This document shows positions 8,507-40,620 of a stretch of 41,710 nt of DNA, in pieces. The notes beneath the pieces are model-generated. The model made no database searches, was not told the origin of the DNA, and saw only the letters and a program-made list of their open reading frames with translations. Origin of the DNA: Clostridiales bacterium (GTDB taxonomy: Bacteria > Bacillota > Clostridia > Peptostreptococcales > Anaerovoracaceae). The DNA is taken from positions 1-41,710 of the forward strand of contig SVCX01000008.1 of the NCBI GenBank assembly GCA_015058145.1. The letters are read 5' to 3'. Both the position numbers and the translations under genes were made by a program. Position 1 is the stretch's first letter. Each line of letters begins with the position of its first letter.

Positions 8507-8548
8507 ACAATTTTCTCCTGTTTCTACATAATTTATGATACTATAGTC

Positions 8549-8577
8549 ATTGTAAATCAAAAGGAGTGCATAGTCAA
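8549..8577 (-). promoter_or_regulatory. Predicted sigma-A promoter of yicC
   Basis: Minus-strand TTGACT (8572-8577), 17-bp spacer, TACAAT (8549-8554). It overlaps the rqcH ribosome binding site on the other strand. Confidence 0.7.
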
Positions 8578-8578
8578 A

Positions 8579-19487: not shown

Positions 19488-19760
19488 TCATGAACAGGAA
19501 ACGAAATATCAAGGGCTATAGCTTTTGTTTTCATGAAAGAGGCCTTGTCAGGTTGTGTATATCATGAAGGGCTAACGGTATATCAAGGGTTTTGGCCGAT
19601 CCTTTCATGAGAATGACTCCATTCGGCTATATATATCATGAAGGGCCAACGGTGTATCAAGGATTCTGGCCATTCCTTTCATGAGAGAGGCCTAATCTGG
19701 TTGTGTATATCATGAAAAACCAACGTCATATCAAGGGCTCCAGCCATCTCCTTCATGAGA
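19488..19760. repeat. Tandem array 1 of 74-bp inverted-repeat units
   Basis: Four units start with TCATGAA at 19488, 19562, 19636 and 19710, exactly 74 bp apart. A second TCATGA lies 43 bp into each unit, making an inverted repeat TCATGAAGGG...CCTTTCATGA with a loop of about 29 nt. Conserved positions inside are AACG near +13, ATCAAGG near +21 and GGCCAT-like near +33. Linkers of about 25 bp follow (often ending TTGTGTATA). A degenerate half unit (CTCATGG at 19455) precedes. 74 is not a multiple of three, so the array is non-coding. It fills the gap between the EIIC terminator and the ylxM promoter. Array 2 (40332-40593) is the same family. Confidence 0.9.
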
Positions 19761-19789
19761 ACGACTCTCCCCCGCCGCCACAATAGCAA

Positions 19790-19827
19790 TAAAACAGGGT
19801 CCGCACTGAACCATCAGCGCGAACCCC
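19790..19827 (-). terminator. Terminator after the EIIC-like gene
   Basis: Minus-strand long stem GGGTTCGCGCTGA / TTCAGTGCGGACCC with G-T pairs and a short loop, followed by TGTTTTATT. It lies about 27 bp past the stop. Confidence 0.75.
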
Positions 19828-19853
19828 GGAATTATCCATGTTATTTGTAACGC

Positions 19854-20942
19854 TTACAGCTTCAGATCGCCGTCCTTGACCCAGCCGAGTTTGCGAACGC
19901 CGGCGTGGAAGATCAGCGCGAGCACGGCAGGCAGGACGAAGGAAATCAGGATGAGGCCTGTCCAGTCAAAAGCTGTGATGGCTTCTCTGGTACCCGCTTC
20001 AATTTCAGCAACCCAACCGGTGTAGACGCCGATCTGACCGACGAGGCCGCATGTGCCCATGCCGGATGAAATCGGTGCGCCGTTCATTTCCATCTTAAAG
20101 AGGCAGGTTGCAATTGGTCCGGTGACGGCCGCTGCCAACGTAGGCGCGATCCAGACGCGTGGGTTTCTGACGATGTTGCCCATCTGCAGCATAGAAGTTC
20201 CGATGCCCTGTGAGATGAGGCCGCCCCATCTGTTCTCCCGGAAGGAGATGGCCGCGAAGCCGATCATCTGCGCGCAGCATCCTGCTACGGCTGCTCCTCC
20301 GGCCAGACCGGTGAGTCCAAATGCGGCGCAGATGGCCGCCGATGAAATTGGCAGCGTGAGGCACATACCGACGACGACAGCAACGATGATTCCCATGAGG
20401 AATGGCTGCAGTTCCGTCGCCCACATGATGAGATTTCCGATGTACATGGCCGCGGCGCCGATTGGCGGCGCGATGAGCCAGGACAAGAAGACGCCGACGC
20501 CTATGGTAACGATCGGGGTCACGAGGATATCGATCTTCGTCTCTTTGGAAACCATCTTTCCTATTTCAGCGGCGATGATTGCGATGAACAGTACGGACAA
20601 TGGACCGCCCGCCCCTCCAAGGGTGTTCGCCGCGTAACCTACGGAGATCATGGAGAACAGCACCAGAGGCGGACATTTGAGCGCGTAGCCGATGGCCACG
20701 GCCATGGCCGGTCCGCACATCGCCATTGCGATGCCTCCAACCGTGTAGGACGTCTCGCCGACAGTGGCTACTGCCTTTGTAAGAAAGCCTATGTTGAACT
20801 GCGTTCCTATGGTGTTCAGGATTGTACCTACAAGCAACGAGCAGAACAGGCCCTGGGCCATTGCGCCGAGAGCGTCTATTCCATATCTCTTGAGAGAAAT
20901 CTCGATGTCTTTGCGTTTGAGAAAGTCTCTGAATTTGTTCAT
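19854..20942 (-). CDS. PTS EIIC-type membrane permease (PTS_EIIC_2)
   Basis: Integral membrane protein (362 residues, about 9-10 hydrophobic segments) of the PTS_EIIC_2 family, related to sugar PTS IIC transporters. Typical features are SLKRYGIDALGAMAQGLFCSLLVGTIL at the start, GGIAMAMCGPAMAVAIGYAL, and the Gly-rich C-terminal part PISSGMGTCGLVGQIGVY. No EIIA, EIIB or cognate sugar enzyme is nearby, so transport chemistry and substrate are unknown; stand-alone members may not be phosphotransferase-driven. The ATG at 20942 (MNKFRDFL) is chosen for GGAGGTAAAG just upstream. Promoter at 20985-21014. Confidence 0.88.
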   Translation of the reverse strand: MNKFRDFLKRKDIEISLKRYGIDALGAMAQGLFCSLLVGTILNTIGTQFNIGFLTKAVATVGETSYTVGGIAMAMCGPAMAVAIGYALKCPPLVLFSMISVGYAANTLGGAGGPLSVLFIAIIAAEIGKMVSKETKIDILVTPIVTIGVGVFLSWLIAPPIGAAAMYIGNLIMWATELQPFLMGIIVAVVVGMCLTLPISSAAICAAFGLTGLAGGAAVAGCCAQMIGFAAISFRENRWGGLISQGIGTSMLQMGNIVRNPRVWIAPTLAAAVTGPIATCLFKMEMNGAPISSGMGTCGLVGQIGVYTGWVAEIEAGTREAITAFDWTGLILISFVLPAVLALIFHAGVRKLGWVKDGDLKL

Positions 20943-20984
20943 CTTTACCTCCGTGAACCAATCATCTATTTCTTCAGCCGAATC

Positions 20985-21014
20985 ATTATAACACTTGCTG
21001 TCAACCTTCACCAA
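20985..21014 (-). promoter_or_regulatory. Predicted promoter of the EIIC-like gene
   Basis: Consensus TATAAT (20985-20990) with weak TTGGTG (21009-21014) at 18-bp spacing; it overlaps the last codons of the upstream MetH-activation gene. Confidence 0.5.
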
Positions 21015-21729
21015 CCCCGCAGCGTTTTCCTTCTTTTCGAAGCGGACACTTATCCTTGAGCACGCACTCCTCGCAGGTGGCCAGCCGGCCGGTGACCGGA
21101 TGGTCCGCCAATCCCATGATCGCGGTAACAGATTTGGACGGACTCATCATGAAGCCTTTGCTTAAGGTGATGCCAAGCTGCCGCTGTGCGTCGAGAAGTT
21201 CCAGCACCTGGGTCTGCATCTCCAGAGGAGAATCGCCGTAGCCCGGACTGAACCGACTTGTCAAAAACACCGAATCGCTATTCGGGCCCAGTGCTTCATC
21301 GGAGGCCAGTTCCTCACGGATTTGTTCCTCGGCCAGGTTCGTCGCCATCTCCGCCATCACGGACGCGCCGCAGTCGATGACCACGCTGAGAGCGATCTTA
21401 CTCCCCTGGGTTTCGGAAATGAGTTCATCCACTCCATTCCCCAGGGTGACGGCCATGAGCACGAGACGATCGCAGCCTTCCAGATGCTTTGCGAGGGATA
21501 CGCCCTGTACCTGCAGGCCGCCGGCGTCCAGAACAACATATGTGAACGCAGGCCGCGCCGCTTCAAAGAGCATGATCTCCGCCTCGTCCATCTGCTCTGT
21601 CAGACGATCGAGAGACACACGCATCTTCTCATCCGTCTCCGCCTTCTTACGGTGCTCCTCGCTGACGCCCAAAAGCCTCAGCCACGTCTCCCGATTCAGT
21701 TTTCTTTCCTGCGAAAATCTGATTTCCAT
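21001..21729 (-). CDS. B12-dependent methionine synthase activation-domain protein
   Basis: About 242-residue stand-alone version of the MetH reactivation domain (Met_synt_B12), which uses SAM and reduced flavodoxin to remethylate oxidised cob(II)alamin in full-length MetH. SRFSPGYGDSPLEMQ and GFMMSPSKSVTAIMGLA match the SAM-binding RxSPGYG...SP..S signature. The C-terminus adds a Cys cluster (CEECVLKDKCPLRKEGKRC), suggesting a metal or Fe-S site. MetH itself is not in this window. ATG 21729 fits the family start; the longer open frame overlaps the divergent gene. No ribosome binding site is visible, and the promoter (21736-21764) predicts a leaderless mRNA. Confidence 0.87.
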   Translation of the reverse strand: MEIRFSQERKLNRETWLRLLGVSEEHRKKAETDEKMRVSLDRLTEQMDEAEIMLFEAARPAFTYVVLDAGGLQVQGVSLAKHLEGCDRLVLMAVTLGNGVDELISETQGSKIALSVVIDCGASVMAEMATNLAEEQIREELASDEALGPNSDSVFLTSRFSPGYGDSPLEMQTQVLELLDAQRQLGITLSKGFMMSPSKSVTAIMGLADHPVTGRLATCEECVLKDKCPLRKEGKRCGVGEG

Positions 21730-21735
21730 AGCATA

Positions 21736-21764
21736 AGTATACTCTCGCTGCGACAAGAAGTCAT
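21736..21764 (-). promoter_or_regulatory. Promoter giving a second predicted leaderless mRNA
   Basis: Minus-strand ATGACT (21759-21764), 17-bp spacer, TATACT (21736-21741); the -10 ends six bases before the ATG at 21729. Confidence 0.6.
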
Positions 21765-21765
21765 C

Positions 21766-21794
21766 TTGAAGATTTTGCGCGTGTGTACTAAAAT
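21766..21794 (+). promoter_or_regulatory. Predicted promoter of the membrane protein-CaiB pair
   Basis: TTGAAG (21766-21771), 17-bp spacer, TAAAAT (21789-21794), then AGGAGG before the ATG at 21820. Confidence 0.65.
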
Positions 21795-21819
21795 TTATTA
21801 TGTTAGGAGGCAGTGAAAA

Positions 21820-22593
21820 ATGGGCAAGCGATTCAAACGAATATCTGTTGTCATGATCGCACATTACATAAGTCTTACCTGGCGCTCAGCCCTGTGCGTC
21901 ACGCTTCTTATTATCTGGCTTGGCGGCATCATTAACGGAAGCGAATCCATCCTGTATCACTTCGAGGAGCACGGGTTCCTCATGGGAATCCTTTGGGTGC
22001 TCTTTATGGGTGAGATGATCGCCCGCTTCTTCCCGTCCGGCATCCGGAGCCCGGGCTGTCAGAAACAGTTCGCCCACAACTTCAAAAAGACAGGCAATAC
22101 AGAAATCATGGTGGCGGACAACCATGCCACTGTTCTGGTCGTGTTCGCCTGGATTCTGTTCAACGGATTTTTTGGAGCGTTGCATATGGTCGGCGTGCTG
22201 AACGACGACTTCATGTTGCTTCTGTGTTCCCTGTTTTCCGTGGGCGACATGATCTGCATTCTGTTCTTCTGTCCGTTCCAGAGCTGGTTCTTCAAGAACC
22301 GGTGCTGCGTTTCATGCCGCATCTACAACTGGGACTTCGCCATGATGTTCACCCCGCTGTTCTTCGTGCCGGGTCTGTACACCTGGAGTCTCCTTGGAGT
22401 CGCCATCGTGCTCCTGGTCGTCTGGGAGATCATGTTCTTCCTGCACCCGGAGCGGTTCTCCGAGAACACCAACGCGTTCCTCTCCTGCGACGGCTGCACG
22501 GAGAAACTCTGCAGACACAAGAGACAGCTCCGCTCCCTCTGGAAGAAAAACGAGCAGTTCTTCACCAAGAGAATCAGACTGCTGAAAGGATAG
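21820..22593 (+). CDS. Conserved membrane protein of unknown function
   Basis: A 257-residue protein with about five predicted membrane segments (near 20-38, 50-66, 103-122, 130-150 and 175-205) and cytoplasmic basic ends. The conserved-looking core is CPFQSWFFKNRCCVSCRIYNWD (in two parts around residues 151-172), and a C-terminal motif HPERFSENTNAFLSCDGCTEKLCRHKRQL carries a CxxCxxxxC cysteine group, suggesting metal binding or redox chemistry. I recall similar uncharacterised proteins in Clostridia but can name no family. GGAGG precedes the ATG. It is 6 bp upstream of a CoA racemase/transferase gene on the same strand, so the two probably form an operon. Confidence 0.8.
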   Translation: MGKRFKRISVVMIAHYISLTWRSALCVTLLIIWLGGIINGSESILYHFEEHGFLMGILWVLFMGEMIARFFPSGIRSPGCQKQFAHNFKKTGNTEIMVADNHATVLVVFAWILFNGFFGALHMVGVLNDDFMLLLCSLFSVGDMICILFFCPFQSWFFKNRCCVSCRIYNWDFAMMFTPLFFVPGLYTWSLLGVAIVLLVVWEIMFFLHPERFSENTNAFLSCDGCTEKLCRHKRQLRSLWKKNEQFFTKRIRLLKG

Positions 22594-22599
22594 ACATCA

Positions 22600-23778
22600 A
22601 TGGGATCACTTGACGGACTGAAAGTACTCGACTTTTCCACTCTGCTGCCCGGTCCCTACGCATCTCTGATGCTGGCCGACATGGGCGCGGAGGTTCTGAC
22701 CATAAGTTCCCCGAGCAAATACGATCTGGTACAGCACTACGGCGCCGAAATCGAAGGCACCGGTATTTCCGCGTGCAGCGCCTGGCTCGGACGCAATAAG
22801 AAGACGATGTTTCTGAATCTGAAGACCGCGGAGGGCAAGGAAATCGTCCGCCGTCTCATCTCCGACTACGACATTGTTCTGGAACAATTCCGGCCCGGCG
22901 TCATGCAAAAGCTCGGGCTGGGTTTTGATGAATTGCGGGCGTTGAACCCGCGCCTGATCTACTGCTCCCTTACGGGATACGGTCAGACCGGTCCTTTGGC
23001 AGATGCGGCCGGGCACGACATCAACTACATGTCCCGCAGCGGTATCATCTCGCACGCCGGCCGCACATCGGACGGCCCGTCCCTGATGAACTTCCAGATT
23101 GCGGACATCGCCGCCGGTTCCATGAATGCGGTCATTGGGATTCTGGCCGCCGTCTACCACCGGGAGCAAACCGGGCAGGGACAGTTTATCGACATCTCCA
23201 TGATGGACGGCTGCGTCCCTTTCAACAGTCTGGACGGCGCAGACTTCCTCGTCTCCGGCAGGCAGCCTGTCCGGGAAGGCGAAATGCTGAACGGCGGATG
23301 CATGTATGATTACTACGAAACCAGCGACGGCGGTTACATGAGCGTCGGTTCCCTGGAGCCGAAGTTCTGGGAAAACTTCTGCCGGTGCCTGGGACGCGAA
23401 GACCTGATTGCGGGTACGGTCTCGCCGGAGAACGCCGGCGAAATCAAGGAGCAGATTCGGGCGATCTTCCGCACGAAGACGCGGGACGAATGGAGCGAGA
23501 TTTTCAAGAACGCGGACGCCTGCGTGCAACCTGTCATGGATCTGAACGAATCCCTGCTGCAGGACGAGCAGGTCCGGGCGCGGGAGATGGTCGTCGAGGT
23601 CGGGATGCCTTTGCATGAGGATGTGAAGGTGAAGCAGATGGCCACTGCCGTCAAACTCAGCGGGACGCCGTGCGAATACCGGCACGCTGGTTACCCGCCG
23701 GGATATCACACACGGGAGGTCATCGAGTCTTTGGGATTCGACTACGATACACTAAAAGAAAAAGGCGTGTTCGACTGA
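22600..23778 (+). CDS. CaiB/BaiF-family CoA racemase or transferase
   Basis: Family III CoA-transferase / alpha-methylacyl-CoA racemase fold (392 residues, cytosolic, usually an interlocked dimer). DFSTLLPGPYASLMLADMGAEVL and EQFRPGVMQKLGLGFDELRALNPRLIYCSLTGYGQTGP are typical. His139 (in AAGHDINYMS) and Asp169 (in QIADIAAGSM) have the same 30-residue spacing as the AMACR acid-base pair His126/Asp156, favouring racemase activity; Asp140 corresponds to the transferase nucleophile, so either reaction is possible. The substrate is unknown. AAAGGATAGACATCA precedes the ATG. Second gene of the pair with the membrane protein. Confidence 0.92.
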   Translation: MGSLDGLKVLDFSTLLPGPYASLMLADMGAEVLTISSPSKYDLVQHYGAEIEGTGISACSAWLGRNKKTMFLNLKTAEGKEIVRRLISDYDIVLEQFRPGVMQKLGLGFDELRALNPRLIYCSLTGYGQTGPLADAAGHDINYMSRSGIISHAGRTSDGPSLMNFQIADIAAGSMNAVIGILAAVYHREQTGQGQFIDISMMDGCVPFNSLDGADFLVSGRQPVREGEMLNGGCMYDYYETSDGGYMSVGSLEPKFWENFCRCLGREDLIAGTVSPENAGEIKEQIRAIFRTKTRDEWSEIFKNADACVQPVMDLNESLLQDEQVRAREMVVEVGMPLHEDVKVKQMATAVKLSGTPCEYRHAGYPPGYHTREVIESLGFDYDTLKEKGVFD

Positions 23779-23786
23779 ACACGCCT
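23763..23786. terminator. Hairpin between convergent genes
   Basis: Perfect arms AGGCGTGTTC/GAACACGCCT with a 4-nt loop; the CaiB-family stop codon lies in the loop and 3' arm. Tails are short on both strands, so termination strength is uncertain. Confidence 0.6.
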
Positions 23787-23795
23787 CTTATATTG

Positions 23796-24560
23796 CTATC
23801 TCTTTTTATACAGCACCAGTTCCGGGTTGACGCCATCTTTCTCGTAGGTGCAGACCATGATGAAATCCATATTCGCCAGAACGCCGAAGCACCGGTCTCC
23901 GCCGAACTCCGACTCCAGCTGGTTCCCCAGATAAGTCGTCTTATCATTCAGGAACTTCACCTCCGCCCCGCTCGGAAGCCGGTACGGGAGATTCACATAC
24001 TGGCCCACGAGGGCGTTCAGTTTCTCCAGTTTCGGCATCCCTTCGATATGAAGGTCGTTGATCTCATCGATCAGCTGCTGCTTAAAGGCGTCAAACTCTC
24101 CATTGTCGCTGAGTTCCTCGTAACGCTTCCAGTAATCCAGATTCGGCAGCATCTGCTTCATGTAGGCGCGGGCCTGCTCCTCCGTGAAGTTCTCGTTCAC
24201 CATGTGCGGCAGACAGGTCTCAATGAGCTCATCCATATCGCTGTAGGTGTAGGTCCCGTCGGCGTAGCACCACTGGCAGTAGTCTTCATTGAGGGTGCCG
24301 TCCTTTTCCCTGCTGATAATGGAATCTTCCAAAGGCATCCCGCAGCACTGACACCGCAGCTGCCGCGGCGATCCGAGCAGAGTATTGATGGAAACGTCAA
24401 ATAGCTTCGACAGCAATTTCAACGTCTCCGTATTCGGAACGGTCTCACCGGTCTCCCAGCGGGACACCGCCTGACGCGTGACAAAAACCTTCTCGGCCAG
24501 TTCGTCCTGGGACAGACCGTTCTTGGTCCGCAGTTCATAGATGACTTCCTTTGTGCTCAT
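23796..24560 (-). CDS. XRE-family regulator with zinc-ribbon domain
   Basis: A 254-residue protein with an N-terminal XRE helix-turn-helix (residues 5-60: TKNGLSQDELAEKVFVTRQAVSRWETGETVP), followed by a putative zinc-ribbon domain with CQCCGMPLEDS and YCQWCYADG (two CxxC pairs, about 70-97) and an alpha-helical segment; the last 80 residues (EYVNLP-type) resemble nothing I can name. Likely a cytosolic DNA-binding regulator in which zinc or a ligand is sensed by the C-terminal part. GGAGGAATGAATT precedes the ATG. The upstream region contains an ATTC-N6-GAAT dyad near the promoter, a possible autoregulatory site. Targets unknown. Confidence 0.88.
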   Translation of the reverse strand: MSTKEVIYELRTKNGLSQDELAEKVFVTRQAVSRWETGETVPNTETLKLLSKLFDVSINTLLGSPRQLRCQCCGMPLEDSIISREKDGTLNEDYCQWCYADGTYTYSDMDELIETCLPHMVNENFTEEQARAYMKQMLPNLDYWKRYEELSDNGEFDAFKQQLIDEINDLHIEGMPKLEKLNALVGQYVNLPYRLPSGAEVKFLNDKTTYLGNQLESEFGGDRCFGVLANMDFIMVCTYEKDGVNPELVLYKKR

Positions 24561-24670
24561 AATTCATTCCTCCAAGTGGCGTGTTCTGATTTCCATATTC
24601 ATTCTAATACGAATACACCCCTATGACACGCAACCTGCTGTTGCTTTTGTAATCAGGAGGCTGTCCTGCT

Positions 24671-25543
24671 TTACTTGTCGAATCGGTTGACGATCATCGC
24701 CGCCTGTTCATTCTCCATCCGATGCGCCCGGTAGGAATAGAATATGTCCACGTTGCACATGGTGCAGACATTGGATACCGAAATATGGTTCTCCGACACG
24801 CCCATTTCCAGGAGTGTGAGCCGATTCGCTTCTCGCAGATCCAGATGGTATTTCCCGTCCGGATATCTACGTAGAATACGGTCCGCGTCGGCTCTTCCCC
24901 ACTCTTTCGAAAACTGCTCATAGACTTCATCACCCATCTCGTAGCAGTCCGCACAAATGCCTGGTCCGATTGCGGTATAGAGATCCCGAGGGTCGCTTCC
25001 AAATTGCGTGGCCATACGCTCGATTGCATTTGCAGGAATTTTTCCTAACGTTCCCTTCCAACCTGCGTGCACAAGGCCGACAGCCCTGCGTACAGGATCC
25101 GCAATATAGATTGGCGGACAGTCTCCGCCGAACGCCGTCAGAAGCACATCCGGAATGTCTGTAATCAGCCCGTCGATGCTTCTCCTGTGAGGTGGTTTAT
25201 CGGGCCGCAGAATGGGTCCAAGATCATCCTCTGTGACCACATATACATGATTTGTATGCATCTGGTCTGTGATGGATTCATGTTCAATGGACGTTCCCAG
25301 CTGCCTTGCCAAAGCGTCTCTGTTTTTGAACACGACCGGAGCCGTCTCTGTAATATCCTCATTTTTCATCACAACGACGCGGAGCCCTTCCTGCCCGACC
25401 TTTCGCTGATCGTCGTAAGATTTGAACCTAGTGGAGTACAGATTTGGAACGCCCAGCTCGTCCAGCATCGCAACGGATAGATAAGGAATCTGTTCTGTGT
25501 GGATGTTGAATATTATCTTTTGGTTTGAATACTGTATCTTCAT
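24671..25543 (-). CDS. pgeF: Polyphenol oxidase / purine nucleoside phosphorylase-like PgeF
   Basis: Laccase-domain protein (290 residues; YfiH/YlmD family). Family members correct peptidoglycan precursors and cleave purine nucleosides with zinc. The metal ligands are visible: QMHTNHVYVV, FGGDCPPIYIADP and LVHAGWKGT; IGPGICADCYEMGDEV and NVCTMCNVDIFYSYR are family signatures. In many Firmicutes the gene sits in the ylm cluster with sepF; here it is about 11 kb away. The ATG at 25543 has no nearby ribosome binding site (the only GAGGGTG is about 16 bases away), and an extended -10 lies 7 bases upstream. Confidence 0.93.
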   Translation of the reverse strand: MKIQYSNQKIIFNIHTEQIPYLSVAMLDELGVPNLYSTRFKSYDDQRKVGQEGLRVVVMKNEDITETAPVVFKNRDALARQLGTSIEHESITDQMHTNHVYVVTEDDLGPILRPDKPPHRRSIDGLITDIPDVLLTAFGGDCPPIYIADPVRRAVGLVHAGWKGTLGKIPANAIERMATQFGSDPRDLYTAIGPGICADCYEMGDEVYEQFSKEWGRADADRILRRYPDGKYHLDLREANRLTLLEMGVSENHISVSNVCTMCNVDIFYSYRAHRMENEQAAMIVNRFDK

Positions 25544-25550
25544 TGGAACG

Positions 25551-25559
25551 AAAATAGCA
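25551..25559 (-). promoter_or_regulatory. Candidate extended -10 just before pgeF
   Basis: Minus-strand TGC-TATTTT (25551-25559), seven bases before the ATG, with no good -35. A third candidate for a leaderless start. Confidence 0.35.
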
Positions 25560-25639
25560 CCCTCGTCATTTTTTTCTGCTTTTCTTCACTCATTATATCA
25601 GCCTTTTCCCTTCTCTCCTATGGCTATTGAATATGTCAT

Positions 25640-25680
25640 AAAAAATTCCCGCTACGGTTCGAAAACACATAGCGGGAACT
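25640..25680 (-). terminator. Terminator after the Ig-like surface protein
   Basis: Minus-strand arms TTCCCGCTA/TAGCGGGAA followed by TTTTTTAT, 11 bp past the stop at 25691. Confidence 0.85.
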
Positions 25681-25690
25681 CATTTTGTTT

Positions 25691-27334
25691 CTATTTGACA
25701 ATTACTGTGAACGTCACTGTCTTGGCAGCTGCATTGTAGTTGGCATTTCCTGCCGCCTTGACTTTGGCTTTCACTTTGTAGGTGCCCTTCTTCAGGCCCT
25801 TCTTCACGGTAACTTTACCAGTCGTCTTGTTGATAGTGATCTTCTTGCTGCCGGACGCTTTGGCGTAGGTCATGGCGCCCTGTCCTTTTTTGACGAAGGT
25901 AATCACCTTACCGACAGCCAGTTTCTGATTCTTATTCTTCAACTTCTTGTACTTGATCGTTGCTGTCTTTGCCTTGACGGCCAAAGGATTCGCTCCTTTG
26001 TTTACTTTCACAGTCACAGTCTTGCCCGTAGACTTAGTGTAATGTTTCCCTTCTGCAGCATATACTGTAATCTTCGCAGTTCCGACACCTTTAATCGTTA
26101 CTTTGCCGGCGCTGTTGACTACTGCCACATTAGCATTGTTGGATGAGTACTTGAGCGCTCCATCGCCATTCGTCTTGGCCCCTATGGCGAATGCTGCGTT
26201 ACCAAATGTCTTGGTAAATGCAGTCTTTGCCAATGTTACTGTCTGAGCGAGTTTATCTATCCTGTAGGTCGCCTTCAATGCTCCGCGATAATGACCTCTA
26301 GCCCAGATATCCATCGAATATGTGCCAGGTTCCACGGAGGATTTATCATGCCAATTCACGACGTAGTCGGTGCCATAAGTCAGTTCCTTTCCACCGATTT
26401 TTACGACTTCCGGTTTCTGGTCCTTACCGTTGTAGGAGAAGGTCGTCCGGGAGAGTTCAAGCTCCATGTCATCAATCGGGACCTGTGCATTGAATATCAG
26501 ATTTGTATACATGTACTCCAGACCGTATTCGTTCGGTACAGGCAGTGATCCATAGTAGTTCAAGCGGGCCGGTGGCAGATTCACGAGAATCTCATCGTAA
26601 ACATCATACCCATCTAGGTATTGGAAGGAAGCGCGGAGACACACATCGTTCTCATCGAATTGGAACGCAGCGTATACATCCGCAACATCATCCTCGTCCA
26701 GGAAGAGGTTGTAAGCACGATAGTCTCCATCGCTCGCCAAATCACGGCGGATCTTCGGGCCATTGCCATTGAGCCGAGTATCGGGATCCATCAGGAGCGT
26801 ATATATAGCGGCGGCCTCGGCGTCATCATACGTACACGCCTTCATACCATCGGCAAGATAAATGAACTTGGTCTTTCCCACCGGTATGTCCACATGCTGG
26901 ATGTCAGGGAATTCGAGAAAGATGGTATTGTAGTAAAGGCCAGGATTGTCTGACCTCAAACCTAACGTTCCTTCCTGGCTGCAGCCATCCAGTCTCCACA
27001 ACGTCAGAATTTGAGCCTCACCATCATACACCTCGGTGGTGATTCCCACGTCATCACTGTTGTCCTTATTCACGTCAAGAAAGAGTTCCATCTGGTTTCC
27101 ATTACCTGGGTGTCCATACACTGTGATAATATTGTTACGGCCCGCAAGCATGAGGAACTGATAGATTGCATTGGCTTCAGCGCCTCTATAAGTCTGCTCA
27201 CCGTCCGTCAAATCGATAGTAACGGTCTTTTGTGCCGCATACGTTTCCTGGGTTCCCATGAACGGTATAAACGTAAATACCATTGCAAAGGCCAGTATCA
27301 TCGCTATTGCTTTTGTTCTTTTCTTCTGTTTCAT
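25691..27334 (-). CDS. Secreted Ig-like-domain protein
   Basis: A 547-residue exported protein. A Sec signal peptide (basic MKQKKRTK, hydrophobic 9-26, likely cleavage after TYAA at 34) precedes an N-terminal domain of about 270 residues that I do not recognise (DVNKDNSDDVG resembles a calcium-binding loop), then Ig-like beta-sandwich modules: SYNGKDQKPEVVKIGGKELTYGTDYVV (about 300-355) and Big_2-like repeats rich in Lys, Ser and Asn to the C-terminus (SSNNANVAVVNSAGKVTIKGVGTAKITVYA). There is no LPXTG or SLH anchor, so it is probably released or bound by charge (the last 130 residues are strongly basic). GGAGGGAGCGAC precedes the ATG. Confidence 0.88.
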   Translation of the reverse strand: MKQKKRTKAIAMILAFAMVFTFIPFMGTQETYAAQKTVTIDLTDGEQTYRGAEANAIYQFLMLAGRNNIITVYGHPGNGNQMELFLDVNKDNSDDVGITTEVYDGEAQILTLWRLDGCSQEGTLGLRSDNPGLYYNTIFLEFPDIQHVDIPVGKTKFIYLADGMKACTYDDAEAAAIYTLLMDPDTRLNGNGPKIRRDLASDGDYRAYNLFLDEDDVADVYAAFQFDENDVCLRASFQYLDGYDVYDEILVNLPPARLNYYGSLPVPNEYGLEYMYTNLIFNAQVPIDDMELELSRTTFSYNGKDQKPEVVKIGGKELTYGTDYVVNWHDKSSVEPGTYSMDIWARGHYRGALKATYRIDKLAQTVTLAKTAFTKTFGNAAFAIGAKTNGDGALKYSSNNANVAVVNSAGKVTIKGVGTAKITVYAAEGKHYTKSTGKTVTVKVNKGANPLAVKAKTATIKYKKLKNKNQKLAVGKVITFVKKGQGAMTYAKASGSKKITINKTTGKVTVKKGLKKGTYKVKAKVKAAGNANYNAAAKTVTFTVIVK

Positions 27335-27407
27335 GTCGCTCCCTCCAACAGATAACTACTTTCAATAATCAGATTCGTTTTTATACACCCCTGTACTAAT
27401 ATAGATA

Positions 27408-27433
27408 CAAAAAAGGCGGGGATTCCCCGCCTA
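27408..27433 (-). terminator. Strong terminator after the MGT gene
   Basis: Minus-strand AGGCGGGG/CCCCGCCT hairpin (27414-27432) with a short loop, followed by TTTTTTGT. It ends the long minus-strand run that starts upstream of rlmD or ruvC. Confidence 0.9.
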
Positions 27434-27467
27434 AATCAAAATTATTGATTCTTGATTGCATTATTTA

Positions 27468-28622: not shown

Positions 28623-28659
28623 TTTCAGATCCTCAGTTTCTTCTTTTTTTCGATCATGC

Positions 28660-29289: not shown

Positions 29290-29315
29290 AATTATGTTGC
29301 CAAATCCGGATTATT

Positions 29316-29630: not shown

Positions 29631-29660
29631 AAGTTTTTCTCCTGCAAAGTTCCTATTCGT

Positions 29661-30152: not shown

Positions 30153-30153
30153 G

Positions 30154-32524
<2,371 letters not shown>

Positions 32525-32546
32525 TCAACAAATGCTTATGCGAAAT

Positions 32547-33713: not shown

Positions 33714-33721
33714 AGTCTTAT

Positions 33722-34849
33722 CTATTCAATGAACATGGCGTCTCCGTAGGAGAAGAATCGATACTCCTCCCGCACTGCCTCTTCGTATACCTCCAGTATT
33801 TTTTCTCTGTCGTAGAGGGCGGATATGAGCATCAGCAGCGTGGATTTCGGAAGGTGGAAGTTGGTGATCAGAGAATCGATGATCTTCCACTCGTAGCCCG
33901 GGTAGATGAAGATGCCCGTGCTTCCGGACCCTGCGCGCACCTGCCAGCACTCCGCTGCTTCATCAAAGTATGCGGCGCTCTCCACGGTCCTTGTCGACGT
34001 GGTGCCGACGCTGATCACGCGTCTGCCTTCCCGCTTCGCCCGGTTGATGGTCTCCGCCGCTTCCTCCGGAACGGTGTATTCCTCAAAGTGCATGTGGTGG
34101 TCTTCGATATTCTCTACCTTGACCGGCCGGAAGGTTCCGATTCCTACATGCAAGGTCACGTAAGCCAGTTCGACGCCCTTCGCCTTCGCCGTCTCCAGAA
34201 GTTCCTCTGTGAAGTGCAGTCCTGCCGTCGGCGCTGCTACGGATCCCTCTTCTCTGCAATAGACCGTCTGGTATCTGTTCTTGTCGTCGTCTCCCGACGG
34301 CCGTTCAATGTACGGAGGCAAAGGCATGCTGCCGATCTCCTCCAGCCGTTCCATGAAGATACCTTCGTATTCAAACTGCACGATACGGGTGCCGTCCGCC
34401 CCAAAGTCCAGGATGTGGGCCCTGAGCAGCGGTCCCTCCGGAATATCGCTTCCCGGTCCGCTGAAGATCACGTCGTCGCCCGGCTTGAGCCTGCGTCCAG
34501 GTCTGACCATCACTTCCCAGGTATCGCCCGCCCCGGTTCTCTTGATAAGCAAAAACTCCACGCGGGCGCCGCCCTCTTTGGCACCTTTGCCCGCGTCGTC
34601 CTTAACGGCTTTGCGGCCGAAGAGACGGGCCGGTATGACTTTGCTGTCATTGAGAACGAGGCAGTCCCCCTCCTTCAGATACTCGAGGATATCGAAAAAG
34701 TGCCGGTGCTCGATTCGCACGTCGGCCCAGCTGCCGTCCTCCTTTTTATCTCTGTGTACAACAAGAAGCCTGGAGGAATCTCTCTTCTCCGCAGGCTTCT
34801 GTGCTATTAAACTCTTCGGTAATTCATAATCGAATGCTTCTATTCTCAT
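33722..34849 (-). CDS. queA: S-adenosylmethionine:tRNA ribosyltransferase-isomerase
   Basis: QueA (375 residues, somewhat longer than the usual 340-350) transfers and isomerises the ribosyl group of SAM onto preQ1-tRNA to give epoxyqueuosine. [25 protein letters not shown], the [11 protein letters not shown] motif, [24 protein letters not shown] and [17 protein letters not shown] are diagnostic. The extra length is partly a [19 protein letters not shown] loop. AAGGATCGAC precedes the ATG. It follows ruvB, the conserved ruvAB-queA-tgt order. Confidence 0.96.
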
Positions 34850-34920
34850 GTCGATCCTTTCGTCTAAACGCAGACAAAATTCTTTTTCCGCAGGCCGGCG
34901 TTGTGCCGACCGCAGGTCAA

Positions 34921-35976
34921 TTATACATCAAGTTCCAGCTGGATGTCATCATCGCCGGACAACTTGCCGTCATCCTCATCGTACTCCATACCCAGATGCT
35001 TATAAGCCGCCCGTGAGACCACACGTCCCTTCTTGGTGCGGTTGAGAAATCCGATCTGGATCAGATACGGCTCATAGACGTCCTCGATGGTCACCCTCTC
35101 CTCGCCGATGGACGCGGCAATCGTATCGATGCCCACAGGTCCGCCGTCGAACCGCTCGATGATATTGCGCAGAATCTCCCGGTCCAGATTCTCCAGACCC
35201 ATGAAGTCCACACCCAGTGCTTCGAGAGCTTTCTTCGTAATATCGATGTCGATGGATCCGGTTCCCTTGACCTGAGAGAAGTCCCGGACTCGCTTCAGGA
35301 TCCTGTTGGCCACACGCGGCGTACCGCGGGAGCGACGCGCCATCTCGTAGACAGACTGTTCGTCTACGGAGACATTGAGCAGCCCCGCCGTCCGGTGGAT
35401 GATGTCCGCCAGTTCCTCCGGCGTGTAGAGTTCAAATTTGCAGCTGACGCCGAATCGATCCCGCAGCGGCGCGCTCAGGCTGCCGGCTCTCGTCGTGGCG
35501 CCGATCAGCGTGAATCTGGCGATATCCAGACGGATGGAACGGGCCGACGGGCCCTTGCCGATGATGATGTCCAGTGCGTAGTCCTCCATGGCGGAGTACA
35601 ACACTTCCTCCACGCTTCGGTTCAGCCGGTGTATCTCATCGATGAACAGAACATCGTTCTCATTGAGGCTGGTCAGAATCGCCGCCAGATCACCTGCCCG
35701 CTCGATGGCCGGCCCGGATGTGATCCGGATGTCGACGCCCATCTCATTGGCTACGATACCCGCCAGAGTGGTCTTGCCCAGTCCCGGAGGTCCATAGAAC
35801 AGCACGTGATCCAGAGGCTCGCCTCTCATCTTGGCGGCCTCGATAAAGACCTTCAGATTATCCGTCGCCGCGCTCTGTCCGATGTACTCGGCCAGAGTCT
35901 TCGGACGGATGCTGAACTCGCTTTTCTCCTCGTCCCTGCCCAGCTGCGCTGATGTAATTCTCTCCTCGTAATCCAT
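34921..35976 (-). CDS. ruvB: Holliday junction ATP-dependent helicase RuvB
   Basis: RuvB hexameric motor (351 residues) driving branch migration at Holliday junctions with RuvA. N-terminal signature [15 protein letters not shown], Walker [12 protein letters not shown], Walker [26 protein letters not shown], and a C-terminal winged helix ([17 protein letters not shown]). An acidic tail of about 20 residues extends past the usual end. GGAGATACACA precedes the ATG. Transcribed after ruvA, in the ruvCAB order. Confidence 0.97.
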
Positions 35977-36012
35977 TGTGTATCTCCATTTGACTCTGCC
36001 CTGGCAAAATAC

Positions 36013-36612
36013 CTAGAACAGATTCTTCAGTGCGCGTTTGATGTACTCCTCGGTCGTCAGATCGTTGTCCGGCACAGACGCCAGTGCGCTGGCCGCCTCA
36101 CCGCGTGAGTATCCCAAAGCCACAAGCGCGCTGATGGCCTCGCCTCTGCCGCCCTGATCCATTGCCACGTCCGCCGCGCCCGCATCCAGATAGGATCCAT
36201 CCGGCGCCGCAGCCGTGAACTTATCCTTGAGCTCCAGCACGATTCTCTCGGCGCTCTTCTTACCGATACCGTTGGCCCTCTGAAGCGCCTTGGCATCCTC
36301 GAAGACAATGGCCTGCTTCAGCTGATCCAGCGTGAGCGCGGAAAGAATCGCCAGTGCCGCCTTCGGTCCCACGCCGCTGACGCCGATGAGCTTCTTGAAA
36401 GCGTCCAGTTCGCCCTTTCCCGAAAATCCGTAGAGGCTCATTTCGTCCTCCCGCACGATCATGGACGTGTGGACGAGCACCTCTTCGCCCTCCGCGTTGA
36501 GATAAGCGGCGGAGTTAGCCGGTACAGAGACCAGATACCCCACGCCGTTCACATCTATCACGATATATCCGTCGCCTTTCTCGGCGAGGATTCCTCTCAG
36601 AAATCCAATCAT
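36013..36612 (-). CDS. ruvA: Holliday junction DNA-binding protein RuvA
   Basis: RuvA (199 residues), the tetrameric junction-binding subunit of RuvAB. N-terminal OB fold ([28 protein letters not shown]), helix-hairpin-helix region [19 protein letters not shown] and [23 protein letters not shown], and the C-terminal RuvB-contact domain ([18 protein letters not shown]). Its ATG overlaps the ruvC stop by 4 bp. Confidence 0.97.
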
Positions 36613-37103
36613 TTATACACTCCTGTCAGTCTGTTGTCGGCGCTGTGGCCGTGGCAGATGGCTGCCGCCAACGCATCCGCCGTGTCGTCCGGTTTCGGAA
36701 CTTCCGGCAGATTCAGCATGGTCTTTACCATGAATTGCACCTGCTTCTTATCCGCCCTGCCGTATCCGACCAGGGCCATCTTAATTTCAAGAGGCGTGTA
36801 TTCGGCGACTTTCAGCCCGCCTTTGACACAGGCGAGAATGGCCACGCCCCTCGCCTGTCCGACGTTGATGGCTGTTGTCGTATTGGTGTTGAAAAACAGC
36901 TTCTCTATACTTGCCTCCTCCGGTCTGTACTCCTCAATGATCTCCCTGAGCCCATTGTAGAGGGTTTCCAGCCGGTCGGGCATCTCCATGTCCTTGTCCG
37001 TGGTTACCGCACCGTAATCGATGGTTCTGAAGTGGTTGCCCTTCTTCTCAATGACGCCCCACCCCAGAATAGCGTACCCCGGATCGATTCCAAGTATGAT
37101 CAT
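36609..37103 (-). CDS. ruvC: Holliday junction resolvase RuvC
   Basis: RuvC endonuclease (164 residues), cleaving Holliday junctions. The four catalytic carboxylates fit E. coli spacing: Asp7 ([14 protein letters not shown]), Glu67 (ASIEKLFFN), Asp140 and Asp143 ([13 protein letters not shown]). The ATG at 37103 is chosen for GGAGGCGCAA; a longer frame upstream overlaps the promoter. First gene of ruvC-ruvA-ruvB-queA and possibly of the whole minus-strand run down to 27.4 kb. Confidence 0.96.
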
Positions 37104-37122
37104 TTGCGCCTCCTGCGACTCG

Positions 37123-37152
37123 ATTATACCATGACGAACAAGTGTTTGTCTA
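37123..37152 (-). promoter_or_regulatory. Predicted promoter of ruvCAB
   Basis: Minus-strand TAGACA (37147-37152), 18-bp spacer, TGG-TATAAT with TATAAT at 37123-37128. Confidence 0.72.
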
Positions 37153-37190
37153 CAGGAAGCCGAACAAAAGCAATACAATTTATTTCAGTT

Positions 37191-37224
37191 TTTGCATATG
37201 CAAAGGTCTTCCCTATGGTATAAT
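37191..37224 (+). promoter_or_regulatory. argR promoter with an overlapping 14-bp palindrome
   Basis: Extended -10 TGG-TATAAT (TATAAT 37219-37224) lacks a good -35; where it should be lies a perfect palindrome TTTGCATATGCAAA (37191-37204). This is a plausible ArgR or other repressor operator, although it does not match the AT-rich ARG box closely. Confidence 0.5.
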
Positions 37225-37266
37225 TATGTACCAATAAGCGTAATTATTATTAAGAGGAGGTCGCCG

Positions 37267-37719
37267 ATGCGCATATCCAGACAGAATAAGATTCTTGAAC
37301 TCATCGAAAACAACGAGATTGAGACACAGGACAAACTTGCAGCGATGCTGCGTGAATATGGCTACGACGTCACACAGGCTACCGTATCCCGCGACATCAA
37401 GGAACTTCAGCTCGTTAAGACACTCACAGCGGAAGGCAAGTACAAGTACGCCGTTTCACCAAGTCAGGACGGCCCGATTCCTGCCCGCCTCATCGACATC
37501 TACAGAAGTACCGTCCGGTCTATCAACAAGTCCGGAAACATCGTGTTGCTCAAGTGTCTGTCCGGATGCGCCAACGCCGCCGGCGAAGCTCTCGACTCCA
37601 TGGAACTGCACCATGTGATTGGCTCCGTCGCAGGCGATAATACCCTCCTCCTCGTCATCGACGATCCTGCGAACTCAGATGAAGTCGTGGATATCCTCCG
37701 CGGACTTCTGGAAAAGTAA
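37267..37719 (+). CDS. argR: Arginine repressor ArgR/AhrC
   Basis: Arginine-responsive hexameric regulator (150 residues). The N-terminal winged helix (MRISRQNKILELIENNEIETQDKL; TQATVSRDIKELQLVK at about 37-51) binds ARG boxes; the C-terminal domain (about 80-150) oligomerises and binds arginine. The usual GDDT arginine-contact motif reads GDNT here (Asp124, Asn125). The ATG at 37267 is chosen for AGAGGAGG 6 bases upstream; a longer frame would overlap the promoter. It is 3 bp upstream of recN, the classic Firmicutes pairing. Confidence 0.95.
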   Translation: MRISRQNKILELIENNEIETQDKLAAMLREYGYDVTQATVSRDIKELQLVKTLTAEGKYKYAVSPSQDGPIPARLIDIYRSTVRSINKSGNIVLLKCLSGCANAAGEALDSMELHHVIGSVAGDNTLLLVIDDPANSDEVVDILRGLLEK

Positions 37720-37722
37720 CCA

Positions 37723-39360
37723 ATGATCAGACATATCAGCATCCGTAATTTTGCCATCATTGAAAATGTCGAGATCGATTTCAATGATGGTCTTAATATT
37801 ATCACCGGCGAAACAGGCGCCGGTAAATCTGTTGTCATCGAAGCAGTGAGTCTGGCTCTCGGGAGCCGGGCAGACACTGCTTTTGTGCGTACGGGAGCGG
37901 ATAAAGCCGTCATCCAACTGGTCGCAACTGCAGATGGAGATGAATACGTAATCACCCGCGAAGTTTCCGCTGCAGGCCGTAGCCTCTGCCGCATCAACGA
38001 TGAGATCGTCACTCTTGGCACCTTGAGCCAGTTCTGCCGCAGCCTCGCCGATATCCACGGACAGTACGACCATCAGTCTCTCCTCGACCCGGACAATCAC
38101 ATCCGCCTCGTCGACCTCTACCGCAAAGACTCCATTCTTCCTGCAAAAGCAACCGTCTCCGCTCTTTACGCTGAGTACACCGGCCTTTGCGAGGAACTGG
38201 CGCGGCTCAGAAGAGCTCAGGCCGAAGGCAAGCGGCAGCGGGACTTTATGGATTTTGAATTAAAAGAGATTGAGGACGCGCATCTTGTCGAAGGCGAAGA
38301 CGACGCTCTCGAAGATGAGATTTCACTTCTGCAGAACAGCGAAAAGATTTTCAGTTCTCTGGCGGGCGCATACCAGACCGCGTCGGAGAGCGACTACTCG
38401 ATTCTGTCAGCTATGAGGCATGTCTCCGACATGGTCGGGGAAACATCCGAATACACGAAGGACCTGGCGGAGCTCAGCCAGCGTCTGGAAAGTCTCTATT
38501 ATGAATACGAGGACGCCTGCACGAGCCTGCGTGATCTGCGAGACGGTACTGTCTACGACCCGGCGGCGCTGGACGAAGCCATCAACCGCTATGAGACGAT
38601 CAAACGGCTCAAGGAAAAGCATGGGCGCACGATTCCGGAGCTTCTCGCGTACGCCGACGAACTGCGCGTGAAGCTGTCATCCATTGATAATGCAGATGAA
38701 GAGATTGCTTCCCTGCAGACCCGGATCGACGCTGCCGCCGCTTCATTGGCGGAGGCTTCTGAAACGCTCAGCTCCCTGCGCCGGGCTTCCGCGTCCGAGC
38801 TGGAAACGCTCATCACCGAGCAGCTCAGCCAGCTCAACTTCAGGGATGCTGCTTTTGCAATAGATTTCAGGAAGGCTGTCGACGCGGCCGGCAATCCTCA
38901 GTTCACGGCGGAAGGCACCGACATCGTCGAGTTCCTGATCACCACGAACCGGGGCGAGCCTCTCAAACCGCTGAGCAAAATCGCGTCGGGTGGCGAGATG
39001 TCCCGCATCATGCTGGCCTTCAAAAAAATCATCGGCGACTACGACCACATTCCGACCATGATCTTCGATGAGATCGACAGCGGAATCAGCGGCATCGCGG
39101 CGTCCGTCGTCGGCCGTAAACTTCGCGAAATCGCGGAGCGCCACCAGATCATCTGCATCACGCACCTGCCGCAGATCGCCGCGTACGGCACCAGCAATTA
39201 CCGCATCTGGAAGCACTCCGACGACCTTATGACCTTCACTTCCGTCGATCCGCTCGATCCGGAGGAGAAGGTCCGCGAGATTGCCCGCCTCCTCGGCGGA
39301 GAGACCATCACTGAGACCACCCTGGCGTCCGCACGGGAACTGATCGAAGCATCAAAATAG
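37723..39360 (+). CDS. recN: DNA repair protein RecN
   Basis: SMC-like ATPase (545 residues) that gathers DNA ends at double-strand breaks. Walker A GETGAGKS at 29-36 after MIRHISIRNFAIIENVEIDF; coiled-coil arms in the middle (about 150-360); the ABC signature region KIASGGEMSRIMLAFK and Walker B MIFDEIDSGISG, then ICITHLPQIAAYG. It starts 3 bp after argR with little ribosome binding site of its own, so translation is probably coupled. A terminator follows. Confidence 0.96.
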   Translation: MIRHISIRNFAIIENVEIDFNDGLNIITGETGAGKSVVIEAVSLALGSRADTAFVRTGADKAVIQLVATADGDEYVITREVSAAGRSLCRINDEIVTLGTLSQFCRSLADIHGQYDHQSLLDPDNHIRLVDLYRKDSILPAKATVSALYAEYTGLCEELARLRRAQAEGKRQRDFMDFELKEIEDAHLVEGEDDALEDEISLLQNSEKIFSSLAGAYQTASESDYSILSAMRHVSDMVGETSEYTKDLAELSQRLESLYYEYEDACTSLRDLRDGTVYDPAALDEAINRYETIKRLKEKHGRTIPELLAYADELRVKLSSIDNADEEIASLQTRIDAAAASLAEASETLSSLRRASASELETLITEQLSQLNFRDAAFAIDFRKAVDAAGNPQFTAEGTDIVEFLITTNRGEPLKPLSKIASGGEMSRIMLAFKKIIGDYDHIPTMIFDEIDSGISGIAASVVGRKLREIAERHQIICITHLPQIAAYGTSNYRIWKHSDDLMTFTSVDPLDPEEKVREIARLLGGETITETTLASARELIEASK

Positions 39361-39367
39361 TCGTTCA

Positions 39368-39401
39368 CTGCATCTCTTTGAAAAAGGAGTTGCAGTTTTT
39401 T
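39368..39401 (+). terminator. Terminator after argR-recN
   Basis: Hairpin CTGCATCTC...GGAGTTGCAG with a short A-rich loop, followed by TTTTTTTATT, just past the recN stop. Confidence 0.85.
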
Positions 39402-39470
39402 TATTGCCGTGATATTGTTGGGATATATTTACAGTATTGTTAATTATAGGGTATTGGTTGTGAGGTTAAT

Positions 39471-40331
39471 ATGACTACGACGGCGCTAAACACTCCTCTG
39501 CTCGTGAACGCACAGATCAAACGAATTCAACAGCAGCTGAACCGGGAGTTGATGTCTTTGCAGAAAGAATTGAACCGTTTGCCGGAGGGGACTCTCTATA
39601 TCCTTAAAAATCGTAAGTGGATTACGTTTTATATGCGGCGTGGCAGCAAGAGATGTGGGATTGGTAAAAACAGAGACCTGGTTTATGGTCTTGCGAGACG
39701 ACAGTACGTCCTCTTGCTTATGCGTTTTATCAGCGAATTTCTTGATAAACTATACATCTGTGATTTAGATACTATCGTTGCTTCCTTCTTATCCGAACTA
39801 AACCTACTACTTGGTAAGTTTGAAAACGCTGGGCTTGATTTGGATCGCATTACCATGACAACCAATCAGTTAATATGGAATTCAGATTGCAACAGCAAAA
39901 GCAATCATTATAGAGAAGACCTTATCTACCCTACAGCTGGACGTGTTTACATGCGATCGAAATCAGAACAGGCACTTGGAAATCTGCTTGAACAGCTTCA
40001 TATTCCTTATCGCTACGAGGCAGTAATAATTATAAATGGAATTGCGTATCACCCTGACTTCATCATCATGCTCCCAAGCGGACGCTTGATTATCATTGAG
40101 CATACCGGGCGCTTAGATTTGAAAAAGTACAACGAGGATCTACTCTACCGCCTTCAGGCATATAACGACGCCAGCCTTCTGATTGGGCGCGATGTCTTCT
40201 TCACTTTTGAACGCGATACGCGTGATAATGCTATTCTTAAAGAAGTCTTGTTCCAGATTTTAACGTCTGTGCCTTCAGATAATATGTTTTTAAGGAAAGT
40301 TGCTGTCAGAGCCGGCTGTCATCTCGATTAA
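39471..40331 (+). CDS. PD-(D/E)XK-like putative nuclease of a Clostridia-expanded family
   Basis: A 286-residue protein. An N-terminal helical, basic region (NAQIKRIQQQLNRELMSLQKELNRLPEG; then a beta segment LYILKNRKWITFYMRR) precedes a restriction-endonuclease-like core: MRSKSEQALGNLLEQLHIPYRYE with Glu166, HPDFIIM with Asp196, and LIIIEHTGRLD with Glu210, ending YNDASLLIGRDVFFTFE. The E...PDF...EHxG layout matches, from memory, a poorly studied family present in many copies in Lachnospiraceae and related genomes. The usual PD-(D/E)XK lysine is replaced (EHT), so catalysis is uncertain. It is AT-richer than recN. GTGAGGTTAAT precedes the ATG. The 74-bp repeat array starts on the base after its stop, with no terminator between. 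Confidence 0.75.
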   Translation: MTTTALNTPLLVNAQIKRIQQQLNRELMSLQKELNRLPEGTLYILKNRKWITFYMRRGSKRCGIGKNRDLVYGLARRQYVLLLMRFISEFLDKLYICDLDTIVASFLSELNLLLGKFENAGLDLDRITMTTNQLIWNSDCNSKSNHYREDLIYPTAGRVYMRSKSEQALGNLLEQLHIPYRYEAVIIINGIAYHPDFIIMLPSGRLIIIEHTGRLDLKKYNEDLLYRLQAYNDASLLIGRDVFFTFERDTRDNAILKEVLFQILTSVPSDNMFLRKVAVRAGCHLD

Positions 40332-40593
40332 TCATGAAAGGTCAACGATGTTTCAATAACTTCAGCCATTAGTTTCATGAGAATCGGCTCATCTGATAGC
40401 GGTTCTCATGAAAGTCCAACCATATCTCAATGATTTCAGCCATTGCTTTCATGAGGATCAGCTCATTTGATCACAATTCTCATGAAAGCTCTACGATGCT
40501 CCAAGGGGTTCAGCCATTGCCTTCATGAGAACAACCTCATATTGTTGTGATTATTATGAAAGCTCAACAATATCGACCATTGCTTTCATGAGT
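40332..40593. repeat. Tandem array 2 of 74-bp inverted-repeat units
   Basis: Four units begin at 40332, 40406, 40480 and 40554, exactly 74 bp apart, with TCATGAAAG (TTATGAAAG in the last). TTTCATGA closes each hairpin 43 bp into the unit; in the last it is 11 bp closer. Conserved inside: CAAC or CTAC near +12, TCAA near +21 and CAGCCATT near +32. The three linkers (about 25 bp, sharing CTCAT in the middle) each contain an inverted repeat at the same positions with different sequence. Non-coding. Same family as array 1, in the same orientation relative to the plus strand. It lies between the stop of the nuclease-like gene and the rpsA terminator. Confidence 0.92.
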
Positions 40594-40620
40594 ACAGAGA
40601 TGATGGTTCCATTCGGCGCA

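Follow-up and report, generated by a model that had tools for sequence, protein, structure and literature searches.

Phased inverted-site arrays beside genes of a nuclease-like family in Clostridia

Two arrays and a nuclease-like gene in one contig

The DNA analysed here, hereafter the window, is a stretch of 41,710 nucleotides from a Clostridiales bacterium (GCA_015058145.1, contig SVCX01000008.1), and corresponds to contig C21 of a 1.53-Mb genome that is 80% complete. A first-pass annotation made from the letters alone had reported two arrays, each with four starts spaced 74 bp apart, and the motif TCATGA 43 bp into seven of the eight units; these were confirmed. The second array (array B) begins directly after the stop codon of a 286-aa nuclease-family gene; neither this position nor any tie of the arrays to such a gene was part of that annotation. 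Arrays of this kind were found beside many nuclease-like family genes in gut Clostridia, with words that differ by member, which suggests an undescribed protein-plus-array system. The features concerned are:

19488..19758, + strand: array A, four 74-bp units (19488, 19562, 19636, 19710), each an inverted site pair around TCATGA
37723-39360, + strand: recN, upstream neighbour of the cassette
39361..40620, no strand: gene-plus-array cassette, between recN and the terminator of the S1 gene
39471..40331, + strand: gene for P0001 (286 aa), with a PD-(D/E)XK-like nuclease half (E166, D196, E210/H211) and a variable N-terminal half
40332..40591, + strand: array B, four units (40332, 40406, 40480, 40554) with sites TCATGAAAG...CTTTCATGA
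40683-41561, - strand: S1 gene (rpsA), whose terminator bounds the cassette

Within a unit, the site TCATGAAAG is followed at +43 bp by its inverse CTTTCATGA, and the next TCATGAAAG lies another 31 bp on. Copies on either side of the 31-bp step from one unit to the next are likewise inverted, a point not made in the first-pass annotation, and the sites therefore alternate between + and - orientation at 43 and 31 bp. The last unit of array B (40554) starts with TTATGA instead of TCATGA and carries an 11-nt deletion, so that its second TCATGA lies at +32. The spaced pair TCATGA-N37-TCATGA matched seven times in the window, always within array A or B; the mean over 100 dinucleotide shuffles was 0.01, and none reached seven. 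A third array of the same repeat family, also absent from the first-pass annotation, was located elsewhere in the genome (G000:C4:20994-21264; four units, 74 bp). A sequence-only model built from these 12 units, eight in the window and four in the C4 array, recovered exactly those 12 in the window genome and nothing else (E<=0.001). Two candidates were discarded, a match of the sequence model in G030 and a lone TTTCATGAGAA match on C13 of the window genome, each at a position that reads as coding sequence. As stated in the first-pass annotation, the arrays are not CRISPR: where CRISPR has identical direct repeats and unrelated spacers, no identical direct repeats were present here and the sites alternate in inverted orientation (cas genes were not searched for).

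Judged by its sequence, P0001 is a member of a multi-copy Clostridia family that is unnamed in Pfam and NCBIfam among the members scanned; P0001 itself had no Pfam match even at E<=5 and no NCBIfam match. Weak PHROG matches were obtained to an endonuclease (E 9e-4) and a Holliday-junction resolvase (E 3.5e-3). Stronger matches of the nuclease half, from PADLOC, were to the C-terminal nuclease end of the candidate anti-phage helicases PDC-S68 (E down to 4e-28) and to HEAT_CxxC_PD-DEXK. A profile search of PDB sequences returned nothing significant, with T7 endonuclease I at E 0.76-1.1. The three acidic residues E166, D196 and E210 were jointly kept in 154 of 159 family loci. Position 211 was His in 149 of the 159. 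At position 212, Leu, Phe and Cys prevailed, and Lys was not one of the six most frequent residues. The kept acids speak for a working enzyme, although the usual lysine was not found.

Family matches were present in 44 of 49 genomes of the genus (E<=1e-5), 36 of which had at least two, some of them perhaps pieces of one gene; the five genomes without a match include incomplete ones. Across the class, a match (E<=1e-10) was present in 31 of 293 sampled genomes and in 17 of 181 genera. When phage and plasmid sequences were searched with family member L081, no record covered 80%, and 3 and 7 records, respectively, matched the nuclease part only. Further matches of the nuclease domain lay inside 'AAA family ATPase' and RecQ genes carried by plasmids from Vibrio, Rhizobium and others, and in G305 a RecQ-type helicase is fused to it (protein L188:1480-3210:-).

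Between recN and the S1 gene, the cassette was present in 4 of the 30 recN loci read; others were empty, for example G004 and G070, and some loci end before the S1 gene. Gene and array come and go as one cassette at the recN-rpsA site. At the orthologous place after recN, the repeat period was 74, 74, 74 and 75 bp in four species: G020 and G007 have four 74-bp units each, and G035 has at least three units of 75 bp, followed by the contig end. The gene at this place in these three genomes showed 62-69% identity, with the site altered to TCATAAAAG (G007, G020) or CTCAGCACA (G035). The first-pass annotation had named a lack of copies in relatives, or a variable period, as what would speak against it; neither was found.

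Arrays and helical phasing across the gene family

The 159 loci were all from Clostridia. Ninety belonged to the genus (30 from the family search and 60 hand-picked rows) and 69 to other genera (29 from the class search and 40 hand-picked rows). Their 700-bp flanks were scanned with a detector that looks for copies of a word and of its inverse at positions fitting one lattice, at periods of 40-100 bp; the 159 gene bodies and 201 far pieces (>750 bp from the gene) served as controls. A score of at least 5 was reached at 60 of the 159 loci (30/90 in the genus and 30/69 in other genera), compared to 0/159 gene bodies and 3/201 far pieces (1/104 and 2/97). Counted by piece, the association gave Fisher p=7e-6 in the genus and 1e-6 in other genera. 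At a score of at least 4, the numbers were 98/159 loci (52/90 and 46/69), 3/159 gene bodies and 6/201 far pieces. With 8-nt words and one mismatch, none of 174 Markov-resampled flanks reached a score of 5. The use of 9-nt words with two mismatches was noisier (score of at least 5 in 3/90 gene bodies, 5/190 far pieces and 2/174 resampled flanks) and was excluded from later counts. The arrays found consist of alternating inverted 7-10-nt sites, and the words differ from member to member.

Far pieces of L078 (genus) and of L214, L217 and L181 (class) scored 6 to 17 in earlier detector settings, and for that reason may be real arrays farther out; the far flanks of L217 and L214, >750 bp from the gene, hold 9+8 and 4+3 sites with a period of 74. 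At L063 (G019:C12), an inverted pair TTTGTCAAC / GTTGACAAA was seen within ~75-85 bp downstream of the gene, perhaps a decayed or single-unit array.

Across the survey, the periods clustered at 51-54, 61-64, 72-75 and 84-85 bp, and periods of 41 and 92 bp occurred once each. The proposal that 74 bp is about seven helical turns, so that the copies would face the same side of the helix, held well beyond the window: with 10.5 bp taken as one turn, 59 of 60 arrays deviated by no more than 0.2 turn from an integer number of turns (mostly 5 to 8), where 24 were expected. The idea of phasing came from the genus set (29/30) and then held on the set outside the genus (30/30), the sole exception being L124 at 92 bp. 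The Rayleigh test gave p=8e-12 for 28 motif groups of the genus and 1e-10 for 23 groups outside it, and the best-fitting turn was 10.5 bp and 10.75 bp, respectively. Flanks that reached a score of 4 only were likewise phased (36/40; 29/33 without the loci viewed when the idea arose; 16/18 outside the genus).

Among the 51 arrays with at least three units, 27 had spacers that were near random (identity <0.40). In these arrays, 81 of 87 spacings were within 1 bp of the period or of twice the period; the chain search itself allowed 3 bp. That the spacing looked selected, as first proposed, is supported both by this retention of the period despite spacer divergence and by its retention in the four species after recN.

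The first-pass annotation had offered two readings of the repeats, a structured RNA family or a protein-binding chromosome element. The second fits. Under the first, the array would be transcribed as tandem hairpins, for example as an RNA antitoxin. The inverted pairs can indeed fold, array B as RNA has z=-3.3, and stems change with compensation between species; however, folding is less convincing for arrays A and C (z -1.6 and -2.4), two-sided change was seen in only one of nine consensus pairs across the 12 units of the genome, the consensus structure comprises stem ends only, and an Rfam scan of the window gave no match. A structured RNA is not supported because about half of the arrays measured have near-random spacers, the arrays stand on either side of the gene and, within the window's subfamily, on either strand, and quantisation to whole turns is a feature of double-stranded DNA (dsDNA) for which an RNA would give no cause. 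The antitoxin of type III toxin-antitoxin systems (ToxIN-like) is an RNA made of ~36-nt repeats, encoded upstream of the toxin and on its strand. The present loci resemble these systems in that a nuclease gene is paired with a tandem repeat array of its own, but differ in their dsDNA features, in periods of mostly 51-85 bp, and in arrays that lie up- or downstream and, within the window's own subfamily, on either strand (the opposite one in L060-L062). An RNA function is therefore considered very improbable. The repeats are neither an isolated repeat nor an RNA family.

Joint replacement of array and N-terminal half, and arrays away from the gene

L060 and L061 share one location, flanked by groEL and hslO (in L061 these names come from profile matches). 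DNA identity between the two loci is 95-98% upstream, 92-98% in the nuclease half and 0.85-0.91 farther downstream. Over a block of ~700-800 bp that comprises the array and the N-terminal codons, identity falls to 34-60%, with intermediate values at the block edges. At the protein level, the nuclease halves are 96% identical and the N-terminal halves 44%, and the site similarity is 0.37. This pair represents one joint replacement of array and N-terminal half.

For a wider comparison of site and N-terminus, 57 loci were usable, three of the 60 array loci having been dropped as the split point was not found. In 47 pairs with nuclease identity of at least 0.55, all six with N-terminal identity of at least 0.78 have a common site. 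The nine most site-similar of these pairs had a mean N-terminal identity of 0.71, compared to 0.26 overall, which was matched in 0 of 5000 permutations. Paralogs within the window genome also differ in their sites: by eye, those on C31, C37 and C69 have TTTGGGTA, TCTACGA and GTAGCA, and the one on C19 has no clear site.

In the window genome, in G007 and in G065, the site of a gene-linked array recurs in further arrays at positions that lack the gene. Two of the three arrays of the window genome are solo. Array A is one, lying between ylxM/ffh and a PTS EIIC gene, and the nuclease-family matches of the genome sit away from it. In G065, the word TTTCTGCGAA forms eight arrays of ~4 to 11 units, with steps of mostly 72-74 bp (some irregular in L271 and L278) and site distances of ~31 and 42 bp; two of them adjoin family genes, and for the other six the 4.0-4.8-kb stretch that was read contained none. 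The exact TTTCTGCGAA pair was absent from three other genomes of the genus. G007 has four solo copies (L053, L054, L049 and L052, on C7, C25, C19 and C21), one of which contains a run of N. They comprise 1 to ~5-6 units between inverted ends near CAAAYCGGGATTT / AAATCCCGGTTTG, whose match is good in two of the copies and imperfect in the other two; the one-unit copies look like collapsed longer arrays. No inverted ends were noticed by eye at the three arrays of the window genome.

The variable unit number and the inverted ends in G007 are what would be expected of passive repeats (tandem duplications of the satellite type, or ordinary MITEs) that are functionally unrelated to the gene family. 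Against this, the association with the gene exceeds that in the controls, sites are kept while spacers randomise, the periods are quantised, and an array was exchanged together with an N-terminal half. We regard passive repeats as highly improbable.

The presence of several arrays per genome (eight in G065, three in the window genome) and their phasing, which suits bridging, also bear on another explanation. ParB-, MatP- and Noc-like proteins bridge distant DNA, and the arrays could similarly be chromosome-organising or partition sites bound by a domesticated, catalytically idle nuclease-fold protein. Catalytic acids retained at 154 of 159 loci are unexpected for an idle enzyme, however, and the patchy presence of the family in both the class and the genus, together with the different sites of paralogs in one genome, also speaks against such a role, which we hold to be rather improbable.

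The position of the arrays relative to the gene matters for a further alternative, an autoregulated or stored nuclease with a defence or toxin-like function. The array would then be an operator that represses the gene and a sponge that holds the protein away from the rest of the DNA, and member-specific sites would prevent cross-neutralisation, as in toxin-antitoxin families. Outside the genus the arrays are mostly upstream (27, with 6 downstream), the nuclease half resembles the candidate anti-phage proteins PDC-S68 and HEAT_CxxC_PD-DEXK, and multiple family matches per genome, with sites that differ by eye in the window genome, would suit a set of insulated members. In the genus, however, arrays are about equally upstream (16) and downstream (15), with the far end of upstream arrays up to ~620 bp from the gene. 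Solo arrays exist, and at both places looked at (recN-rpsA and groEL-hslO) the gene stands alone between housekeeping genes. This alternative is plausible in parts and on the whole unlikely.

A putative protein-array module and its analogues

Taken with the sequence comparisons above, the repeats are probably dsDNA site arrays that serve as phased platforms for the cognate nuclease-family protein, the two forming a protein-dsDNA-array module. We infer binding, oligomerisation, cleavage and spread by the protein from these patterns, and the following steps are proposed. The N-terminal half of each protein would read its own 7-10-nt site. Alternating sites at periods of mostly 5, 6, 7 or 8 turns would allow several proteins to line up on one face of the DNA in a nucleoprotein complex, and the C-terminal PD-(D/E)XK-like half, thereby held at the array, would cut or process DNA there. 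The resident enzyme may further help to copy or maintain a small population of cognate repeats, in the manner of REPIN/RAYT pairs but with an unrelated enzyme and phased dsDNA sites. Of the ways in which the module may work we favour this one, with the copying step put at somewhat below even odds. In its widest form, the proposal is of an undescribed Clostridia system in which each nuclease has its own DNA address code, in the form of an array of phased inverted sites whose 7-10-nt word is particular to that member, and in which the proteins would assemble in helix register, act on DNA and propagate the arrays, new specificities arising by joint replacement of N-terminal half and array. This is offered tentatively, as slightly less likely to hold in full than to fail in some part.

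Several observations weigh against the module. The 159 loci do not have the canonical (D/E)XK Lys where it is expected, two residues after the last acid. Sixty-one of these loci lack an array even at a score of at least 4 (for example L066 and L069), contig ends accounting for only some, and the loci were drawn from ranked lists rather than randomly. Chance lattices in gene bodies and far pieces were themselves slightly biased towards whole turns (67/148, p=0.026; 88/220, p=0.12). The Rayleigh values given above ignore relatedness. Clustering by identity left 38 groups at 50% (p=2e-14), 30 at 40% (7e-9), eight at 35% (p=0.15) and three at 30% (p=0.04); at the lowest cut-offs a cluster median combines arrays of unlike period. 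When all 1596 pairs are taken, the correlation of site similarity with identity is weak (Spearman 0.07 for the N half and 0.17 for the C half), and in the 47 close pairs both N (0.82) and C (0.70) correlate with the site. L183 and L235 have similar sites at an N-terminal identity of 0.36, and L110 and L112 have different sites at 0.62. Only L060/L061 separates the halves cleanly, because the six site-sharing pairs are alike in both (nuclease identity of at least 0.82). The evidence for spread by the protein is indirect, and the inverted ends of the solo arrays in G007 could belong to another element.

The closest working analogues of the proposed module appear to be REPIN/RAYT pairs and the helically phased ends of the IS607 family. 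In REPIN/RAYT systems, an enzyme gene adjoins its own cognate inverted repeats and the two co-evolve (PMC8266576); REPINs are described as two inverted REPs around a diverse spacer (PMC8049555). The likeness to REPIN/RAYT (TnpA-REP, REPtron) lies in a resident enzyme gene beside its own inverted repeats, with further copies elsewhere in the genome. Inverted pairs were found both beside the gene and dispersed, and they co-vary with the protein, cleanly only in close pairs and one swap. The present family is not placed among REPIN/RAYT systems because its enzyme is of another kind: RAYT is an HUH (Y1) tyrosine transposase, whereas P0001 has no Pfam match and its nuclease half fits endonuclease or PD-(D/E)XK-type profiles. 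The tandem arrays with whole-turn phasing, the few arrays in the genomes looked at, and the paralogs with different sites in one genome are further differences. At the left end of IS1535, an IS607-family element, short motifs lie in helical phase and several protein dimers assemble cooperatively on them (PMC6188088). The short phased sites are shared with such ends (TnpA serine transposase filament), while inverted sites some 2-4 turns apart, longer arrays and a different enzyme set the present system apart. PDC-S68 candidate defence helicases and RecQ-nuclease fusions have the nuclease half in common with the family, as their C-terminal part, but carry a helicase where the family has a short N-terminal half.

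Among the open-access papers listed by full-text searches, none was seen to describe the family or its arrays, which does not show that no description is in print. Many family genes carry an apparent binding code of their own, and specificity might therefore be read from sequence for many members. If binding is confirmed, these would form a naturally occurring collection of protein/site pairs, in which the reading half is exchanged as a module, and a second, unrelated solution to the REPIN/RAYT task. The module would also explain a class of intergenic repeats that otherwise resemble structured RNA.

Two further features of the window lie apart from the arrays:

7622-10234, - strand: 870-codon open frame, of which the last 293 residues are a YicC endoribonuclease
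1324-2568, - strand: AAA_14/DUF4143 ATPase gene

The first 576 residues of the 870-codon frame had no Pfam match, and the frame may therefore overrun the real start upstream or be a fusion.

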